Below, in pieces: positions 40,172-50,025 of a stretch of DNA of 64,000 nt; the first letter of the stretch is position 1; each line of letters begins with the position of its first letter. Location of the stretch: contig CAMWUI010000001.1 of assembly GCA_947177395.1 (NCBI GenBank), forward strand, positions 1 to 64,000. Reading direction: 5' to 3'. The translations under genes were made by a program, and so were the position numbers. Origin of the DNA: an uncultured Paraprevotella sp. (GTDB lineage: Bacteria; Bacteroidota; Bacteroidia; Bacteroidales; Bacteroidaceae). The notes under the pieces were generated by a model. That model saw only the letters and a program-made list of their open reading frames with translations. It had not been told where the DNA came from and searched no databases.

Positions 40172-40813
40172 ATGAAAAACAGAATGGAAGTTATGGGCGG
40201 TTTTTGGGGCCTTGGCTATTTGTTTAACATCCTTTCCTATTCCATCGGGAGCTTGCTGCTGGGTGTCCTGATTACCTTGTTGGGTATCGTGTTGATGTTT
40301 GTGTTGATACGTTCCTGGTGGCGCGACAGCACCTTCACCCCCATGAGCTTCCTTGTGGCCGGCATCCTGTTTTTCTTCTTGGCCTTCCAGTCCGTGCTCC
40401 TATGCGGGGCGGTGACTATCAAGTCTTATTGCTCGGATGTGGAAGAGGCCGTCAACGAAATGTTGGACGGTATGCCCAAGTATGCCGAAGTGCCGCAGGA
40501 TGCAACCAACGAAATATTGGGTGAAGTCATGGAGCGGTGGCCGTTGGTGGCTTATTACATAGGGAGTTACGAGTCGTGGGGATATACGCCTGTGAACTAT
40601 GCCAAAGCAATGGCCGATGAGCTGCATCATTTTATGAACATGTATATCCTGCGCCGTTTGGCGTGGGCGTTGGGCTTTATTATAGTCGGTGCCGTATTGG
40701 TCATCAAGACCATATCCCGGCGATATGACAGGCGTCCGGCGGGGCGCCCGGCTTCTCGCCAGTCGCAGGTGCCCGGGAGGGAGCGCCTGCATGTGAGGCG
40801 GAGCCGTAGATAG
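40172..40813 (+). CDS. predicted membrane protein, first gene of the FtsZ-like operon
   Basis: The 213-aa protein has hydrophobic segments at about 17-47, 57-82 and 160-182, the first possibly one long or two short helices. Between the second and third lies a loop of about 75 polar residues; the C-terminal 30 residues are strongly basic (RRYDRRPAGRPASRQ...) and probably cytosolic. I do not recognise a family. Its place at the head of an operon with a tubulin-like GTPase makes it a candidate membrane anchor or scaffold (inference). ATGs at 40184 and 40193 are alternative starts. Confidence 0.7.
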   Translation: MKNRMEVMGGFWGLGYLFNILSYSIGSLLLGVLITLLGIVLMFVLIRSWWRDSTFTPMSFLVAGILFFFLAFQSVLLCGAVTIKSYCSDVEEAVNEMLDGMPKYAEVPQDATNEILGEVMERWPLVAYYIGSYESWGYTPVNYAKAMADELHHFMNMYILRRLAWALGFIIVGAVLVIKTISRRYDRRPAGRPASRQSQVPGRERLHVRRSRR

Positions 40814-40857: not shown

Positions 40858-43842
40858 ATGACAACAAGTTTTTGTAACAGCAACCATATCCTGGTGGGAT
40901 TGGGCGGTACGGGCGGAAAGATTCTCCGCGCGTTCAAAATGCGTATGTTTGAGGAATTCCCGACAGCGGAAGAGCGTAAGAAACAACCCGTGGCTTTGCT
41001 TTATGTGGACTCTACGGACGAGATGATGCCGAAGGACGGAAAGCCGAGGCCCGACTTCCGTGTGATGGGGCAGGATGCCTCGTTCACCAACAACGAGTTC
41101 TTGAACATCAAGGCTGTGGATGTGGAGCATATCCTCGACCATATCGGTAATTATCCTTCGGTGAGAGGTATTGTAAACAACGTGGCCGCTGTGAAGTCAG
41201 CTATCGGTTCGCTGGGACAGGCCGCCGGGCAGAAACGCCGTGCCGGCCGCTTGTTGTTCGCGGCCAACGCAGTGGGCTATGTCAACAGCCTGCGCGATGC
41301 GTATGCCCGTTGCGAGCAGGTATCGGGAGATTCCTCCAACCTCAATATCCATATTTTTGCCGGCCTTTGCGGCGGAACGGGATCCGGTTCGGTCGTGGAT
41401 GTGTTGGTGCAGACGCGTAAGACATTCCCCAACGCTAAAATTTCCGTGTATGCCATGATTCCGGAGATGAACCTGCCTAAGATCGAGATGGATCAGGGAC
41501 GTTATTACCAGAACGGTTACGCCGCCTTGAACGAACTGAACGCCTTGCAGGCCGGTCGCTGGAATCCGCAGGATGTGACCGGCGGCGGAGAAGCGCGCTT
41601 GTACAACGACCGGGTTAAGGGTGTGGCCGACGGTCTGACCGTATACAGCAATGTAAACGAGAATGGACTGACAATAAATTCTTTGTCGGAATTGCCCAAG
41701 ATAGTCAGTGATTATTTGTTTGCCCGTATCTTCTTTGTCAGCGAGGAAGATGCGGTGAACTCGGATATCATCCGCGCGTATAATTTTGAAAACATGGATG
41801 ATTTCGCGTTGGAGTATGATGAAGTAGCCAATCCGGGACCCGACGGCCGTATTCCGGTGGCGCGCACCAAGAAAGTCAATTCGTTTGGTATCAAGCGTGT
41901 GATGTATCCCGAATTGCGCGTGTTGAAACACATCACGTACACCGTGGGCGAGAGCGTCCTCTATCAGTTTAAATACAACAACTGGCGCGAGAACCAGGGA
42001 TTCGTCAACGAAGAGCGCAACAAAGACTATCGCAAGGAATATCTGAACGCCGACAACTTGTCCAAATGGATGCTCGACCTCAAGCACCTGACGCTGGACC
42101 TGAAAGTGTTGGATTCAGACACGGATTACCCTACATTCAATGACTATTGGCACGACAAGGCGCTCATTTATGCTGAGGACGCCAAGAAAGCTGACTGTCC
42201 ACTGAATGAGTTGGACAACATCATGAGCGAGTTCTATGAGAACCATTTCCGGGAGGAAGGCGTGGTGAAATTCTTCTCCGGTAAGGAGCGCGTCATACCC
42301 GAATTGTCCCGCGAAATCCGTCATAAAGTGGAAAGCGAATTGTTCGACAAATGGAAGACGGGCGATGTGTCCATCGTGGAGTTGCAGAAAGTATCCAAAC
42401 TGTTGCTGGAGCGCATAGGCGAACTCCGTGGCGAGATAGAGGCTGCCTGCAAGGAAGAAGGCGAGAACTACAAGGCATACGATGAGGACCGTAGCGCCAA
42501 TGTGGCCGAGTGGAGCCGTTTGGGCATCCTCCAGCGTATGGTGGGAGCCGGTGCGCGCCGCTATGCCGACCATCAGGGTATCCTGACGGATTATTACACT
42601 TCGAAGACCATGCTTGTGGCTTTGGACTTCGCCCGTAAACTGGCGGCCAAAGTGCTCATGGAACTGGGTAAGATGGACGCCGATATCACAGCCTTCGGGC
42701 AGAAAATCAACGAAGCGCTGGAAGAGACCGAGCGTCTGGTTACGGCACAGCGTAAAGTAAACAAGGGTCTGGAAGACATGAAGGGAGCCATCATCGAGGT
42801 GAGTGAGGACGAGGTGATGAGCGAGTTTGAAATAGAACTTAAGGTGGATAAAATCGATATGCCTAACATCGCCCGCCAGATTCGCGAAGCTATCCTGCCG
42901 CAAGGCGACTTCGTCAACTTCGGGCGACTGACCGCAGACATCGGCATTGACGATATTACGGATGCGTTTGACATAAAGCTCTCCCAGATAGTCAAGGCCA
43001 AACACGACGAGAAGGCCGACAGCGACAAGAAGGTGCTGGGATTGAACATCCTGACCCAATTGCAGCAAAAGCTCCGCACCGATGATGATATAAAGGCTTT
43101 TGCGGCGAAGATAGTGACGCAAAGCGGTTGTTACCTGAAATTAAACAACGACCAGATTCAACTGCATCTGCGCAACAACGAAGGTAACTTGAGTCCTACG
43201 AATCCGGCCAGCATCAACAAGAAGGCCATTCTCGTATCGATACCTTCCCCGGACGAGAACGAAGGTTTGAAGAAGTTTGCCGATAAATTGGAAGAAGCAT
43301 TCAAGAATTCCTTCAATCAGAGCACGGCACGCACGAGTATCACCGTGAACCGCAAGAGTCCGCGCAAGGATGAGTTGTCGATAATCACGGTCTCTTATTG
43401 TTTCCCCATCCGTGCCATCGATTGGATGTCGCCGTATAAGGAGCGTTACGAACGCTTCCTGCATACCGGTAACCCGGCTACGGATTTGGGGAATGCCATC
43501 CTGTTGCATAGCGAAGGCGACGGTAGCCAGTTGCCTTCCCTGTTTCCCGGCGCCCCGGTTCCTCCTCCTGTTATGATGCCGCCTCAGCCGGAACCGGAAA
43601 TACAGCTCTTTATGGCAGTAGGCGGCCAGCAATATGGCCCTTATAACAGGGAAATGTGCAAGCAGATGGTGCAGAACAAGCAACTTACGCCCCAGACAGT
43701 GGTGTGGATGGAAGGAATGCCCGCTTGGACGCCTGCCGGACAAGTGCCTGCGCTCATGTCGCTTTTTGCACCTCCGGCCGCTACTCCCGGCATGCCCCCG
43801 ATGCCGCCTATGGGTGGGCCGACGCCTCCTCCCATGATGTGA
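40858..43842 (+). CDS. FtsZ/tubulin-like GTPase (Tubulin_2 type) with C-terminal GYF_2 domain
   Basis: The 994-aa cytosolic protein starts with a Rossmann-type loop HILVGLGGTGGKILRAF (about 10-26) and carries the tubulin/FtsZ signature as GLCGGTGSGS at about 169-178, followed by VSVYAMIPE-like strands. The wide spacing and size fit the large bacterial tubulin-like families rather than cell-division FtsZ. The middle (about 400-750) is helical and probably coiled in part. At 917-970 lies a GYF_2 domain (LFMAVGGQQYGPYNREMCKQ, WMEGMPAWTPAG), flanked on both sides by Pro-rich runs; the tail ends PPMPPMGGPTPPPMM. It likely forms or regulates a filament. Genes around it encode membrane and exported proteins. 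Confidence 0.85.
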   Translation: MTTSFCNSNHILVGLGGTGGKILRAFKMRMFEEFPTAEERKKQPVALLYVDSTDEMMPKDGKPRPDFRVMGQDASFTNNEFLNIKAVDVEHILDHIGNYPSVRGIVNNVAAVKSAIGSLGQAAGQKRRAGRLLFAANAVGYVNSLRDAYARCEQVSGDSSNLNIHIFAGLCGGTGSGSVVDVLVQTRKTFPNAKISVYAMIPEMNLPKIEMDQGRYYQNGYAALNELNALQAGRWNPQDVTGGGEARLYNDRVKGVADGLTVYSNVNENGLTINSLSELPKIVSDYLFARIFFVSEEDAVNSDIIRAYNFENMDDFALEYDEVANPGPDGRIPVARTKKVNSFGIKRVMYPELRVLKHITYTVGESVLYQFKYNNWRENQGFVNEERNKDYRKEYLNADNLSKWMLDLKHLTLDLKVLDSDTDYPTFNDYWHDKALIYAEDAKKADCPLNELDNIMSEFYENHFREEGVVKFFSGKERVIPELSREIRHKVESELFDKWKTGDVSIVELQKVSKLLLERIGELRGEIEAACKEEGENYKAYDEDRSANVAEWSRLGILQRMVGAGARRYADHQGILTDYYTSKTMLVALDFARKLAAKVLMELGKMDADITAFGQKINEALEETERLVTAQRKVNKGLEDMKGAIIEVSEDEVMSEFEIELKVDKIDMPNIARQIREAILPQGDFVNFGRLTADIGIDDITDAFDIKLSQIVKAKHDEKADSDKKVLGLNILTQLQQKLRTDDDIKAFAAKIVTQSGCYLKLNNDQIQLHLRNNEGNLSPTNPASINKKAILVSIPSPDENEGLKKFADKLEEAFKNSFNQSTARTSITVNRKSPRKDELSIITVSYCFPIRAIDWMSPYKERYERFLHTGNPATDLGNAILLHSEGDGSQLPSLFPGAPVPPPVMMPPQPEPEIQLFMAVGGQQYGPYNREMCKQMVQNKQLTPQTVVWMEGMPAWTPAGQVPALMSLFAPPAATPGMPPMPPMGGPTPPPMM

Positions 43843-43892: not shown

Positions 43893-44771
43893 ATGGCAAG
43901 TACAAATCGTTCGGAACGTGTACGTTTCAGATACGGCCTCTGTCTGAATGACAGTTGCCCGAAATGTAAATCAAAAGAAGTGCAGCAGATAGCAGCCCGC
44001 AAGGACTTTGTCTGTGCGGAGTGTGGTAAGGCCTTGCGCGAATGCCCGCCTCCCCGGTCTTTCTGGGACAAGTATGGCAAGATGATCATAGGTGGCGGTG
44101 TGGCCTTGGTGGCCATCATCTTGGGCGTGGTGTTCCTGGCCGGCGGAGACAAAAAGAACGAGACGGAAAAGCCGCCCGTGGAGAACGTCGATTCGGTGAA
44201 GGTCCCCGAACCGGAAGAAGATGGCATGGAAGTGGAAGAAGTGAACGTGGAGAAGATGACGTTTATGGAAACGGAAGCGGACATGACATTGAAACCCGGC
44301 AGCGAGAAGCAGCTCAATATCGATTGTACGCCGGGCAATGCCAATGAAGACGTGTCATGGATTTCATCGGATGAGTCTGTGGCTACCGTAAGCGAATCCG
44401 GATTAGTGACGACTGTCAAAGCCGGTACGGCCACCGTGAAGGCTGTGGCCGTCCGTTCCAAAGTGGCTGCGTCCATTAAAGTTACCGTGAAGGAAGAGAA
44501 GAAAGGCGGTTCTGGCGGCAATGGCGGTGGCGCTTCGGTGAAGAACGGCCAAGGACATCTGGAACTGGGATACGCCTCTTATGACGGAGATATCCGGAAC
44601 GGACAGCCGCATGGTAATGGAACCATTACTTATAAGTCGTCTCATAAGATTATTCCTTCCAAGGACTATATGGCTTCTCCGGGGGAATATGTGATAGGTA
44701 ACTTTGCCAACGGAGTATTGCGTATGGGTACGTGGTACAAAAACGATGGCAATCAGATTGTAGTGAAGTGA
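43893..44771 (+). CDS. zinc ribbon - transmembrane - Ig-like (Big_2) - MORN protein
   Basis: The 292-aa protein combines four parts. Residues 22-44 hold a zinc ribbon (CPKC ... CAEC) that should be cytosolic. A single helix spans about 63-84 (MIIGGGVALVAIILGVVFLAG). After an acidic linker comes a bacterial Ig-like Big_2 domain at about 120-205 (VSWISSDESVATVSESGLVTTVKAGTATV). The C-terminal part from about 218 is MORN-like (YDGDIRNGQPHGNGTITY). The topology would link the cytosolic tubulin-like protein with the periplasm. It follows that gene by 50 bp and overlaps the next start by 4 bp. Confidence 0.8.
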   Translation: MASTNRSERVRFRYGLCLNDSCPKCKSKEVQQIAARKDFVCAECGKALRECPPPRSFWDKYGKMIIGGGVALVAIILGVVFLAGGDKKNETEKPPVENVDSVKVPEPEEDGMEVEEVNVEKMTFMETEADMTLKPGSEKQLNIDCTPGNANEDVSWISSDESVATVSESGLVTTVKAGTATVKAVAVRSKVAASIKVTVKEEKKGGSGGNGGGASVKNGQGHLELGYASYDGDIRNGQPHGNGTITYKSSHKIIPSKDYMASPGEYVIGNFANGVLRMGTWYKNDGNQIVVK

Positions 44772-45886
44772 TACGAAGAAACTCCCTCTGTGGCGCATGG
44801 ATGGTAGCTCTGTTGTGGGGCTACCTCCTGCCACTTTTTGCAGGACAGCCTCGGTTCGCTACCGAGCGTCTCCGGGGAATGGCCGATGTCATGGCCTTGG
44901 AAGGGCTGGACACGTTGGCTGTTGCTGCGGATTATCGGAGCGGATATACTTACAACGGACGTCCGTTACATATCACGACGAATCCATGGGGGGAGGTTTC
45001 ACATATAGGTTATCGTTTGTTCGATCCCGGTTTGAGCATAGTGCAACCGTCTCCCGTCTATAACTTTCTGGAACGCTATTTGCTGGAGTTGGATTTGCCC
45101 TCTGACATCAATCGTTTCCTCCGGCTCGAATGTGATCAGGTGCATGTGCAGGGCAACTTGGGGGTGTTGGCTTCGCTGGACGGGACGGAGGAATTTGTTA
45201 TTGACCGCCGCCCTTATCTCAAATATCGCGTCTATTGGACGCGCGGAGGCAAGGAGTTGCTTTCTCTCTCGTTCAACATGGAATGTCAGTTGTTCATGGG
45301 TTGTATCACTACGGAACAAGAGACAAACCTTGTGCGTGACTTGAAACGCACACAACCTTACGCCGTGGCTCTGCCCGACAAACCGGTTGGGGGCGAACTG
45401 ACGAAGGCGGACGACTTTTATATCCTGCACGGACGCAATTATATGCAAGACCACATACGCAACGATCTGTTTTTCCGGAAGGCCGGGGAGCGTTTCGTGC
45501 TTGTGGAAGATGCGGGGTATCCTTTGCAGGCCATTTCCGACATTCTGCTTACCGGACAATCGGTGAGAGACTACAACCTGGATGTGTGCTTGGACAAGTA
45601 TGGTTATGAGACGGAGGATTTCACCGTCACGTGGAAGCAGTGGGTGGCCTTTTGCAAGGAAGAGGGATGCGAATTCTTTTTCGGGGTGAAGAGCCGTACT
45701 GACGAGGCCATTGTGGGGACATTCTTTGCTGTGAACGACCAGATGGGGTACAACCACATGATGAATGTCACCTTTCCCCTTTCGCTGTTGGAAGGCGGGG
45801 ACGGGCAGTTGGCCGCACGTCTCTATGCTTACATACCGTTGCATAACGTGTCGGAGAAATATTTTAAGTTTGATTATAAAAAGTAA
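44768..45886 (+). CDS. exported protein of unknown function, FtsZ-like operon
   Basis: I choose the GTG at 44768, which overlaps the previous stop (GTGA) and gives an N-terminus IRRNSLCGAW followed by a hydrophobic stretch, a good signal peptide; the ATG at 44801 would remove the positive charges. The 372-aa product has alternating strands and no motif I know (SYLRL-type repeats are absent; notable are TVTWKQWVAFCKEEGCEFFFGV and AYIPLHNVSEKYFKFDYKK). Translational coupling to the zinc-ribbon/MORN gene argues for a joint function. Confidence 0.7.
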   Translation: MIRRNSLCGAWMVALLWGYLLPLFAGQPRFATERLRGMADVMALEGLDTLAVAADYRSGYTYNGRPLHITTNPWGEVSHIGYRLFDPGLSIVQPSPVYNFLERYLLELDLPSDINRFLRLECDQVHVQGNLGVLASLDGTEEFVIDRRPYLKYRVYWTRGGKELLSLSFNMECQLFMGCITTEQETNLVRDLKRTQPYAVALPDKPVGGELTKADDFYILHGRNYMQDHIRNDLFFRKAGERFVLVEDAGYPLQAISDILLTGQSVRDYNLDVCLDKYGYETEDFTVTWKQWVAFCKEEGCEFFFGVKSRTDEAIVGTFFAVNDQMGYNHMMNVTFPLSLLEGGDGQLAARLYAYIPLHNVSEKYFKFDYKK

Positions 45887-45890
45887 CGCA

Positions 45891-46667
45891 ATGAAGAAGA
45901 TAGGATGTTTGTTGCTGGCCTGCTGCAGTGTGTTTTCTCTATGGGGGCAGACAGACGCGGATGCCCAGAAGAAAGAGATAAACAAGGTGAAGAAAAGTAA
46001 CCAATATCTTTACGGAGAGGCAACGATGGCAACGCAGGAAGAGGCGATGTTGTTGGCCGAAGAGTTGTTGTATTCCAATATAAACCAGTGGGTGGCTGAG
46101 CAGAAGAAATTGAATGCGGCAAACAAGGTTGTGGTGGTGAACACGAAGCAACTTTGGGGTAATATAGCCTTGCCTCGCGGAAATATGTTCAGGGCTTTCT
46201 ATTATGTAAAGAAGTCGGATATCCTGCCGGCTGAGAATACAAACATCATCGAAAAGGAACGGGCGGGAAATGGCGGCACTTCTGTGGAGCCGTTGTCGGC
46301 TGAAGAAGTCGTAGCCGGGGACACTCAATCCGAAAAGACTGTAACTGAAGAGGTCGGAACCGAAGAGAAAACAACAACCGACGTGACTATTCCTCCCGTA
46401 GTGCGGGAGGTGGCGGAAGTGACGGATTTTTCCCGGTTGCAATCCGTCCTGAACCGGTTGAAATCGGAAGGCAAGGTGAAGGATTTCAATAAGTATGCGG
46501 TATTGACGAATAAGGATGATTATTACCTAATTATATATAATAAAGAAGGAAAAATTGAAGCAGTCCTGAGCAAAGGCCCCTCCCGCTTGAATGTAAAGAC
46601 GGGGCAGACTGACGGCGTGGAGAATTATTCGGGAAGAGGTGCCATTGGTTTCAGTATTGTTGAATAA
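45891..46667 (+). CDS. exported protein of unknown function, FtsZ-like operon
   Basis: The ATG at 45891, 4 bp after the previous stop, begins a signal peptide (MKKIGCLLLACCSVFSLWGQ); the longer ORF of the track overlaps the neighbour. The 258-aa product has an N-terminal helical part with Gln/Glu/Leu-rich sequence (QEEAMLLAEELLYSNINQWV), an acidic Glu/Thr-rich linker at about 135-175 and a C-terminal part (VLTNKDDYYLIIYNKEGKIEAVLS). The cysteines at 13-14 could form an alternative lipobox, but its context is poor. Family unknown. Confidence 0.7.
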   Translation: MKKIGCLLLACCSVFSLWGQTDADAQKKEINKVKKSNQYLYGEATMATQEEAMLLAEELLYSNINQWVAEQKKLNAANKVVVVNTKQLWGNIALPRGNMFRAFYYVKKSDILPAENTNIIEKERAGNGGTSVEPLSAEEVVAGDTQSEKTVTEEVGTEEKTTTDVTIPPVVREVAEVTDFSRLQSVLNRLKSEGKVKDFNKYAVLTNKDDYYLIIYNKEGKIEAVLSKGPSRLNVKTGQTDGVENYSGRGAIGFSIVE

Positions 46668-46688
46668 AAGACAGAAAAGGGGATTTTT

Positions 46689-47687
46689 ATGAAAAGATAT
46701 GTTATTACATTATTGTGTATGTGCTTGGGAATGGTAGGAATGTATGCACAGACCGTGGGAGTGACGCTTACAACGGATGAACATGCCGGGCGTCCGGCGG
46801 TGGTCGGCCGTGTGCAGGACAACCTGTCGGCTTTGCTCACGGAAATCAACGCGGCGCAGAAGGCTAATCGTGATTTGAATATCGTGGGTTTGCCGCTTGA
46901 CGATTTTGCCAAGAAGTCGCTGACTATGATGTGGGCCAACATCCATTTCTATTGCGATGACGAGGAGGTCGTAGACCGTTGCTGGGTATTTGAAGACGGA
47001 TTCATGGTGCGCCAGATACCGCTTATCATCACACCGCAAGGAGAGACTTTCGGAAGCGGCACTTATCAAGAGGCCGTGGCGGAATTCGACAAGAACGGGA
47101 ATATTAAGGATTTCCGTTTCGCCCTTGATGCACAGTTGTCTGAAGGCATGGAAAAGTGTGGGGCGGCTGTGGAAGAGGACCGACGCATGATTATCCTCAA
47201 GTATTGCGAGCGCTTCCGCACGGCATACAACACGAAAGATATCCAGTTCATGAAGCAGATTTTCAGCGACGATGCACTGATTATTACGGGAAACGTGGTA
47301 ATGGCCAAGCCGACGGAAACAAGCTACGGCGGACAAAAGGTGGTGTATAAGAAGCAAACCAAGCAGCAATACATCACCAACCTGCAACGTGCCTTTATCC
47401 GTAACAAATGGATAGACGTGAAGTTCAGCCAGATTGGAGACAACGGGGAGCAAGGCGGATGCCCCGGCATCACACGCTCTTCTGTCAATCCCAATATGTA
47501 TGGTGTACGCTTGCGTCAGGAATGGCGATCGAGTAACTACAACGACGAGGGCTACCTCTTCCTGCTGTGGGACTTTACGGATGAGGCTAAACCGGTTATC
47601 CACGTCCGTACCTGGCAACCCGAATGGGTAGGCGGGCAGAAACTCCCGGAAAAGGATGTGTTCTCGTTGACAGACTTCGACTTGTAA
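46689..47687 (+). CDS. exported protein with NTF2/SnoaL-like domain, FtsZ-like operon
   Basis: The 332-aa product has a signal peptide (MKRYVITLLCMCLGMVGMYAQ). The region at about 165-320 resembles the NTF2-like cone fold: ILKYCERFRTAYNTKDIQFMKQIFSDDALIITG is typical of its first helix and strand, and the end YLFLLWDFTDEAKPVIHVRTWQPEW fits its last strands. Such domains bind small ligands or act as assembly modules. The N-terminal 160 residues are unknown. It lies 21 bp after the preceding gene. Confidence 0.7.
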   Translation: MKRYVITLLCMCLGMVGMYAQTVGVTLTTDEHAGRPAVVGRVQDNLSALLTEINAAQKANRDLNIVGLPLDDFAKKSLTMMWANIHFYCDDEEVVDRCWVFEDGFMVRQIPLIITPQGETFGSGTYQEAVAEFDKNGNIKDFRFALDAQLSEGMEKCGAAVEEDRRMIILKYCERFRTAYNTKDIQFMKQIFSDDALIITGNVVMAKPTETSYGGQKVVYKKQTKQQYITNLQRAFIRNKWIDVKFSQIGDNGEQGGCPGITRSSVNPNMYGVRLRQEWRSSNYNDEGYLFLLWDFTDEAKPVIHVRTWQPEWVGGQKLPEKDVFSLTDFDL

Positions 47688-47707
47688 TCATAAAACAATA
47701 GATACGT

Positions 47708-49225
47708 ATGAATTTAAGACACTGCTTGGGTATGTTTGCCCTGTTTGCCTCTTGCGCACTGGCTGCCCAAAACAATCTTTTTTATAATTACCAGATAACT
47801 TCGGAAAGCAAGGCTGTGGCTTTGGATGGTAAATCGCAGCTTGTCGTAGTTTCACCCCACGATGATTTGACCGCTACGGTTTCAGGTCAGGCGACAGGCC
47901 GGTTCGGTACTCCGAAGAAACGGTCGGATGGGCTGTATGCCTATACGACTCTGTTCGACCTTTCGCAAGGCCGTGAAGTGAAGCTGGTGTTCGCACGCAA
48001 AGGGTCTCCTTTGCAAACGGACATGAAAGAGGTGTTGGCACCGAACAAAAGCATCACCTACAAGGTGGAGGAGGTGGAGAACCCCATTTCGCTCAACGAA
48101 CAAACCGGGCGTAACATGTCGAGCAAGGTGCATGGGGAGTCGGATTTGGAATTCACCACCGACATCGAGGGGCTCAGTGTGAAGGTCTCTCCCTTGTTGA
48201 AGAGCCGCATCTCGAAATCCAAAACAGCTGCCGGCGCCCAGGTCGTCACGATAAGCATCGTGATGAAGCCGCTGACGGACTTGCGGGAGGAGTTGCAGAA
48301 GTGTAAAGAGGAATATGAACTGCTGACGCAGGAAATGAGCGAGGGCAAGATACAAGCAGGCGATACGGCCAAACTGAACAGGCAGGAAGCGTTGGAAGGT
48401 ATTGTCGAAGAGATGGGAATACGTTTGAGCGACATGGCGCAGGTGACTCTGAGCGCTCCCAACAGTAACACACTGGCCATCTCCTTGGACAATGTGAGCG
48501 AAAATGAGCGGAAGGCGTATGCTGTGTTGGCCATGAAACAGGTGGAAAACGTATACAACACCAGTTACGACCAATACCTGGCTAATGCGCTGGAGGCGGT
48601 GAAGACACGCAAGTTCAAGGCTGCGGCCGACTTCTTCCGTCAGGCAGCGGAGGCTGCCGATGCTCCGGAGGAGGGTAAGGCCACATGCGGGGAGCGGGCT
48701 ACGGACATGGACAATTGTTTTGAGTTCATGGATATGGCAAACAAGGCGTTGCGCCGCTTGAAGGAGGAAAAGAAGAAAGGGGAGATGGTGGACTACGGAC
48801 TGATTGAGGAGTGCTACAACGTGGCCATCAAGAACTACGAAAGCCTGTACCAGTTGACGCAGGACGAGGAGTTTAAGAGAAGAATCTCTGTGTTGGAGAA
48901 AGACCTTAAGAAATTGGGCATTGTGGTGGAAGGCGCAGTCACGGGTATAGACCGCAAAGGAGGTGTCTTGTGGGAAAATCCCCTTACGGGCGTGAACATT
49001 TATGCCGTTCCATTCGGGCAGGGCGGTGCTTCCTATGTCAAAGGCACTTGTGGCGACTTGGTGGGAAGCGTGGACGAAAAGGGACGCTACCACGTCCAGT
49101 TGGAACGCGGGAAATACGAAGGGTTGCTTTTCGTGCCCGTTGCCTCCAAGGATTACAAGAAAAATGCGTGGCGCGCCCTGAAAGAGCAGCGCCATGCCAA
49201 AATCGACGTCAAATTCAACAAATAA
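47708..49225 (+). CDS. exported protein with TPR-like helical region, FtsZ-like operon
   Basis: The 505-aa product starts with a signal peptide (CLGMFALFASCALAAQ). The first 190 residues look like beta strands; about 200-400 is helical with a possible TPR-like stretch (RKFKAAADFFRQAAEAADAPEEGKATCGERATD) and Glu/Lys-rich segments; the end (about 415-505) is again beta-rich and could be a carboxypeptidase-regulatory-type sandwich (VNIYAVPFGQGGASYV, GSVDEKGRYHVQLERGKY). No family is recognised. It belongs to the same transcript as its neighbours, with 20- and 26-bp gaps. Confidence 0.7.
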   Translation: MNLRHCLGMFALFASCALAAQNNLFYNYQITSESKAVALDGKSQLVVVSPHDDLTATVSGQATGRFGTPKKRSDGLYAYTTLFDLSQGREVKLVFARKGSPLQTDMKEVLAPNKSITYKVEEVENPISLNEQTGRNMSSKVHGESDLEFTTDIEGLSVKVSPLLKSRISKSKTAAGAQVVTISIVMKPLTDLREELQKCKEEYELLTQEMSEGKIQAGDTAKLNRQEALEGIVEEMGIRLSDMAQVTLSAPNSNTLAISLDNVSENERKAYAVLAMKQVENVYNTSYDQYLANALEAVKTRKFKAAADFFRQAAEAADAPEEGKATCGERATDMDNCFEFMDMANKALRRLKEEKKKGEMVDYGLIEECYNVAIKNYESLYQLTQDEEFKRRISVLEKDLKKLGIVVEGAVTGIDRKGGVLWENPLTGVNIYAVPFGQGGASYVKGTCGDLVGSVDEKGRYHVQLERGKYEGLLFVPVASKDYKKNAWRALKEQRHAKIDVKFNK

Positions 49226-49251
49226 TTATAGTATTAAAAAAAGAAATCATT

Positions 49252-50025
49252 ATGAGACAGTTTTTCAGATGGAGCCTTTTGGCGATGGCCATGGTCTTGT
49301 CCCTTCCCCAGTCTTCTTGGGCTGACAAGAAAGAGAAGAAAAAAGAAAAGAAGCCTTATGAGTGGGTAATGCCCAATTTGTCCGGTAACGAGGAGATGGA
49401 CAAATACCTGCTTGCTTGTGACACGATGTTCAACCAGGTGAAGAGCTATAAGGAAAGCATCACCTTCTACGAAGTGAAGAAAATTCAGATTACGGATGAA
49501 GACGGAGCTGTGGTTACGGATGAGAACGGTAATCCGAAGGAAGTGTATGCCGTGGTAGACGAGAACAACACCATCCGTGGCGCAGGTGAGGCATTGGCCC
49601 AGTACCTGCAGATGACGATGGCCGGTGCGAACCTGATTCTCGACATGACGAACATCGGTTTGCTGACAACTTCCGCCAGCTTGGCATTGCCCAAGTTGGG
49701 ATTGGGCGCCATCACTTATGGCAAGTATATCAAGGCCGGTCCCAAGCTCATCGGTATAGCATCTTCCGAGATTAAGGGCATCGTGAAGGATTGCCGCGCA
49801 CAGGCCCGTAACATAAAAGCCTACAAGAAGAATTTCTCCGAGAAGGGTGAATTGCTGGATCCGCAGGCTGATTTGTCCAATCTCGACGGCACGAACTTGG
49901 CCGATGTGCCGACGGTGCAGAAACCGCAGGCTGAGTATGAGAAGGAGATTCTGTCTGCTGCAGAGGAAGACAAGAACGCTTCTGCCGTGGATGACGATGC
50001 ATTCGACGGAGCCATGGAAGATTAA
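49252..50025 (+). CDS. exported protein of unknown function, last gene of the FtsZ-like operon
   Basis: The ATG at 49252 begins a signal peptide (LLAMAMVLSLPQSSWA) followed by a Lys-rich stretch DKKEKKKEKKPYEW; the longer ORF runs back through the previous gene. The 257-aa product has a hydrophobic segment at about 123-160 (NLILDMTNIGLLTTSASLALPKLGLG), perhaps membrane-associating, and an acidic C-terminus. Family unknown. A terminator follows within 35 bp. Confidence 0.7.
   Translation: MRQFFRWSLLAMAMVLSLPQSSWADKKEKKKEKKPYEWVMPNLSGNEEMDKYLLACDTMFNQVKSYKESITFYEVKKIQITDEDGAVVTDENGNPKEVYAVVDENNTIRGAGEALAQYLQMTMAGANLILDMTNIGLLTTSASLALPKLGLGAITYGKYIKAGPKLIGIASSEIKGIVKDCRAQARNIKAYKKNFSEKGELLDPQADLSNLDGTNLADVPTVQKPQAEYEKEILSAAEEDKNASAVDDDAFDGAMED

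Follow-up and report, generated by a model that had tools for sequence, protein, structure and literature searches.

A tubulin-like protein of the FtsZl1 (Tubulin_2) family, encoded by an uncultured Paraprevotella sp., ends in a GYF domain that may dock it on a membrane protein encoded next door, through the juxtamembrane motif RECPPP of that neighbor. We infer both the binding and the recruitment from conservation and gene order, and put the probability of this reading at roughly 0.5. Both domains and the family are already known; the fusion, together with a conserved motif in the neighboring protein, is new. A description of the fusion was not found in the searchable literature, which leaves out most subscription papers. 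FtsZl1/Tubulin_2 proteins are widespread, no functional characterization of them was met in the literature examined, and they have been linked to membrane remodeling solely through gene neighborhoods, an inference Makarova and Koonin drew from operons (PMC2875224). If the docking is real, a defined adaptor and a six-residue candidate ligand would offer a concrete, mutable handle on membrane tethering of these proteins, and there would be a specific ligand to test on the bacterial GYF_2 domain, in which the pocket residues of eukaryotic GYF domains are missing.

The Tub2-GYF protein

The gene occupies positions 40858..43842 of the window (the whole 64,000-nucleotide stretch of DNA analyzed), on the forward strand, as do all window features located below. 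Its 994-residue product, with orthologues in related genomes, was initially annotated as a GYF_2 domain fused to a tubulin-like protein, and both halves of that call are borne out within one open reading frame. Tubulin_2 (PF13809) matches residues 11-367 (40888..41958; Pfam E 3.6e-48), a region with invariant columns and with Foldseek matches to tubulins, CetZ and TubZ. GYF_2 (PF14237) matches residues 918-966 (E 3.6e-15) with 55.9 bits against a curated cut-off of 25.8, and this is the sole GYF_2 match in the genome assembly. PADLOC returned no defense-system match worth keeping.

Glycine-rich loops are found in the Tubulin_2 domain at residues 14-20 (GLGGTGG) and 169-177 (GLCGGTGSG); the GGTGSG loop of the FtsZ-like N-terminal domain, residues 172-177, is invariant in the alignment of relatives. 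An AlphaFold model built on an alignment of 50 relatives (mean pLDDT 86.9, pTM 0.75) runs from the tubulin-like domain through very long helices and another alpha/beta region to a linker, the GYF domain and a tail, and the whole model is matched by Foldseek to tubulins, BtubABC, CetZ and TubZ. The long predicted helices (residues 506-554 and 564-630; 42373..42747; pLDDT mostly >90) are the probable coiled coil of the FtsZl1 family. In that family an FtsZ-like N-terminal domain, an extended coiled coil and a mostly helical C-terminal domain form the majority organization, not a strict requirement; a Bacteroides caccae member appears in the 2010 alignment of Makarova and Koonin, and neither GTP binding nor filament formation is established for the family (PMC2875224). 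The Tub2-GYF protein shares the FtsZ-like domain, the glycine-rich GTP loops, the long coiled-coil region and an operon with membrane proteins, but has a GYF domain with proline-rich flanks in place of the helical C-terminal domain. Unlike FtsZl1 operons, the adjacent operon genes scanned with Pfam include no recognizable vWA or GTPase gene.

The C-terminal region first flagged at 43600-43842 corresponds to residues 915-994, the GYF domain and tail, and the motifs quoted for it are exact: APVPPPVMMPPQPEPE upstream, GPYNREMCKQMV and WMEGMPAW within, and a tail ending in PGMPPMPPMGGPTPPPMM. The GYF domain itself, delimited at residues 917-970 (43606..43767) by the Pfam match, conservation and the Foldseek result below, has pLDDT block means of about 75-88. 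It is preceded by a proline-rich linker of low pLDDT (residues 897-914; 43546..43599), whose PPP at 902-904 is conserved among relatives (P902 in 41/42, P903 in 40/42, P904 in 32/42), and followed by a Met/Pro/Gly-rich tail (residues 971-994; 43768..43839; pLDDT about 40) ending TPPPMM. Residues 899-911 of the linker and 974-994 of the tail are predicted to be disordered.

Models confirm the GYF fold. With a GYF-containing model of an orthologue (locus L034), Foldseek returned 7z3c, 8z9y, 7rup and 3fma at a probability of about 1, the matched proteins being the GltJ GYF domain, Tic56, GIGYF1/2 and Smy2. Among solved structures the closest is 7z3c, the GYF domain of GltJ (AglX) from Myxococcus xanthus, the best match in both sequence and fold. 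GltJ itself is a gliding-motility protein, whereas the GYF domain here sits on a tubulin-like protein, and the whole-protein match to GltJ (NF033761) fails, scoring 25.8 bits where the cut-off is 450, from the GYF part only.

Distribution and origin of the fusion

Scanning a single genome for each GTDB species recovered 74 loci, the majority with 47-91% identity to the Tub2-GYF protein over nearly its full length, in records that bear the names Prevotella/Xylanibacter, Phocaeicola, Bacteroides, Muribaculaceae, Paludibacteraceae and others. The GYF domain with its proline-rich flanks recurs in about 65 distinct Bacteroidales loci, which takes the arrangement far beyond chance. The distribution of PF13809 is patchy, as seen from its presence in 47/399 genomes of the window's family and 15/393 of the order sample.

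In a tree of the core, the GYF-bearing Bacteroidales proteins form one clade. Their sister (L092) and deeper relatives have no GYF domain, and carry instead about 120 C-terminal residues of helical-looking sequence. A C-terminal GYF domain is also found, after additional domain sequence, on a Tub2 protein from a lineage that we call Chlorobi-like (L152), a class placement read from the sampled group, and on one from an Azospirillum plasmid (L166). With that extra sequence in both, more than one origin of the fusion is probable.

Several variants were seen along the way. On plasmid p2 of Azospirillum sp. TSA2s the fusion gene (L166:6935-10579) is flanked by caspase-family, OmpA-family and DUF4384 genes, a neighborhood that resembles a conflict or surveillance island. 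A second genome of the same genus (G132) holds a divergent Tub2 paralogue with two tandem GYF_2 domains (L149:3-3035), without a proline tail and without a zinc-ribbon neighbor. Just 3' of one complete operon lies a shortened Tub2-GYF copy of 561 amino acids that lacks the middle (L057:17358-19043), likely a duplication remnant. In the Xylanibacter muris-type locus an in-frame TAG splits the protein into 755 + 265 amino acids (L010:1066-4194 and L068:7986-11114). Finally, a second Tub2-like ORF of about 775 amino acids, with part of the N-terminal domain apparently missing, immediately precedes the main GYF-less Tub2 in genome G149 (L165:1354-3678), and similarly in G160; the pair is possibly a two-subunit version.

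The zinc-ribbon neighbor and its RECPPP motif

Gene order around Tub2 is conserved: a multi-TM protein (213 amino acids; 40172..40813; no PPP in 62 homologues), Tub2, a zinc-ribbon/TM protein, and five further genes. The latter, g384, g300, g332, g505 and g351 (44732..50025, as judged from synteny and sequences, with the start of the last more likely near 49252), have signal-peptide-like starts in most cases and no Pfam or NCBIfam match above cut-off. The zinc-ribbon gene (43893..44771) adjoins Tub2 in almost every locus whose flank is long enough to show it. Its product, the proposed membrane partner, has 292 amino acids, one TM helix and a Pfam Big_2 match (E 6.8e-13); its zinc ribbon and MORN matches are weak, below the Pfam cut-off.

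Just before the TM helix of this protein stands the candidate GYF ligand, RECPPP (residues 49-54; 44037..44054). The longer motif LRECPPP is near-invariant in the zinc-ribbon proteins of 56 GYF-bearing loci, with proline at its last three positions in 54/56, 53/56 and 56/56, and variability jumps at the residue directly after it. The prolines are encoded by all four synonymous codons, hence the conservation is at the level of the protein. Together with the GYF fold, the near-invariance of the motif, its sharp edge of conservation and its varied codons argue for docking. A further argument comes from the other six operon proteins, none of whose roughly 296 homologues contains PPP. Across 32 genes of the window (15.7 thousand residues), PPP is otherwise present only in a DnaG-type primase linker. 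Lysine and arginine are richer before the TM helix than after it, so the positive-inside rule predicts a cytoplasmic location for RECPPP, on the same side as Tub2, which favors docking.

Does RECPPP track the GYF domain?

PPP is present in the neighbor at 57/66 loci with a GYF domain (assigned by HMM and hand correction) versus 2/27 without (57 loci with both, nine with GYF only, two with PPP only and 25 with neither). The zinc-ribbon gene persists in relatives without GYF, where its product is mostly devoid of PPP and has sequences such as EVKPKK or EIPQKG at the site of ECPPP. In the Chlorobi-like L152, the Tub2-GYF gene is followed by a zinc-ribbon protein with PVPPPLSP directly before its TM helix. 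These observations favor docking. A simple Fisher test of the counts gives p 5e-13, which we set aside as evidence since the tree shows only about two independent gains of GYF, too few for the association to reach significance there. The tree counts two changes of GYF and eight of PPP. Of independent pairs it yields two, which differ in the same direction or not at all, never in the opposite one.

Against docking stand this small number of GYF gains, one of which (L152) sits on a very long branch, and a handful of exceptions: GYF without PPP at L094 and L098, PPPP without GYF at L016 and L017, and no zinc-ribbon neighbor beside the Azospirillum fusion. The association is best called suggestive, and rests mainly on conservation of the motif within the clade and on its restriction to one of the seven neighbors.

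A model of docking and adaptor exchange

In the mechanism that we favor, the GYF domain at the C-terminus would serve as an adaptor: by binding RECPPP on the cytoplasmic side of the zinc-ribbon/TM protein, it would tether a cytosolic member of the FtsZl1 family to the membrane. Through this contact the tubulin-like protein would join an envelope complex, the remaining parts of which are encoded by the downstream genes. The linker, GYF domain and tail would have taken the place of the helical C-terminal domain of relatives as the neighbor gained the matching motif, so that GYF-RECPPP docking might substitute for a contact made by that helical domain. A single chain of GYF domain, tail and neighbor was folded for the in-frame locus L034, with stops read through using NCBI table 6; its domains are confident, and their arrangement is not (pTM 0.35).

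The wider evolutionary picture, toward which we lean slightly less than away, is that of a Bacteroidales tubulin-superfamily protein rewired to the membrane by an adaptor swap, in which a GYF cassette replaced the helical domain and the neighbor gained RECPPP. The result would be a GYF-polyproline recruitment module connecting the protein to a new envelope complex, with a related pairing of independent origin in the Chlorobi-like lineage.

Residues of the GYF pocket

Among 42 aligned GYF-bearing proteins G927, P928, W957, A960 and F970 do not vary at all, and Y926, Y929, W950 and G953 hardly vary. Eukaryotic GYF domains (CD2BP2, Smy2, GIGYF1/2, PSIG1) share the fold and the GP[YF] core, and work as adaptors using proline-rich ligands, a role also proposed for the Tub2 domain. 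They differ in the pocket: the W and Y of the motif GP[YF]xxxx[MV]xxWxxx[GN]YF are absent here, replaced by M937 and Q942, which leaves the eukaryotic-type pocket incomplete, and the candidate ligand is PPP[K/R] without a PPG motif. In the plant protein PSIG1, the W570A/Y575A and Y575A substitutions abolish proline binding (PMC5657617); in an alignment with the GYF domain of 1wh2, M937 and Q942 map to W570 and Y575. The canonical W position is also occupied by L in GltJ and by M in Bd0075 of Bdellovibrio (PMC12034629), from which the missing W is a trait of bacterial GYF_2 domains rather than decay of Tub2-GYF.

The M937 and Q942 replacements speak against docking, and bring in a quite unlikely alternative, in which the GYF domain binds no proline, or binds an unrelated partner, the proline-rich segments are flexible linkers and the PPP of the neighbor is structural. 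Proline-rich flanks stand beside nearly all bacterial GYF_2 proteins surveyed, as generic linkers would, and REC forms a short strand of the zinc-ribbon domain in the predicted model, which could explain the conservation of REC and, less well, that of PPP. Most GYF-less zinc-ribbon orthologues, however, lack PPP though the ribbon is kept. The aromatic binding surface, whose absence would have counted against the initial annotation, is partly lost and partly in place: the W and Y pocket positions are replaced, but W950 and W957 are conserved. F918, Y926 and Y929 remain aromatic at canonical positions, with the first strand mapped by comparison to CD2BP2.

The protein's own proline-rich flanks

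Instead of docking on RECPPP, the GYF domain could bind the proline-rich linker or tail of its own chain, for auto-inhibition, or that of a neighboring subunit, for multivalent cross-linking or bundling. We regard this as rather unlikely. It draws on the tails themselves, which follow the GYF domain with PP in 66/67 GYF-bearing proteins and are found in 0/27 GYF-less relatives; SPFH-GYF proteins and the Azospirillum fusion likewise end in PPP-rich tails, and a self-ligand beside a GYF domain was proposed for PSIG1 (PMC5657617). Yet the tail drifts in sequence and length among relatives and is disordered in both models, the monomer model showing the GYF fold but no tail docked on the GYF domain or the body. 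Two GYF domains occur without any tail in L149, the invariant motif of the neighbor is left unexplained, and bundling presupposes filaments, which are unproven for the FtsZl1 family (PMC2875224). The earlier interpretation is as a whole partly supported: it sought the ligand solely within the same protein, and the most conserved candidate is RECPPP of the adjacent membrane protein. Under docking on RECPPP, the protein's own proline-rich flanks would probably be secondary, weaker or competing ligands.

Related GYF cassettes

In the same bacterial family, SPFH (Band_7_1)-GYF_2 proteins have in common with Tub2-GYF a C-terminal cassette of TPPPMP, GYF, LFAPP and a PPP tail (PPPPPMP), which may thus have moved as a whole between different types of protein. 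The SPFH-GYF_2 proteins differ in having SPFH instead of Tubulin_2, and in the short loci examined no zinc-ribbon PPP neighbor was seen. Such SPFH proteins ending in the Pro-GYF_2-Pro cassette were met at L026-L031 (e.g., L030:1498-2850, reverse strand), and their genes often adjoin that of a second small GYF_2 protein ending PPPLP or PPPMP, a GYF/PPP family without a tubulin. At L180, L189, L194 and similar loci, small proteins combine an N-terminal GYF_2 domain with MPPDPP or MPPEPP directly before a predicted TM helix, and thus hold a GYF domain and a juxtamembrane PP motif in one chain.
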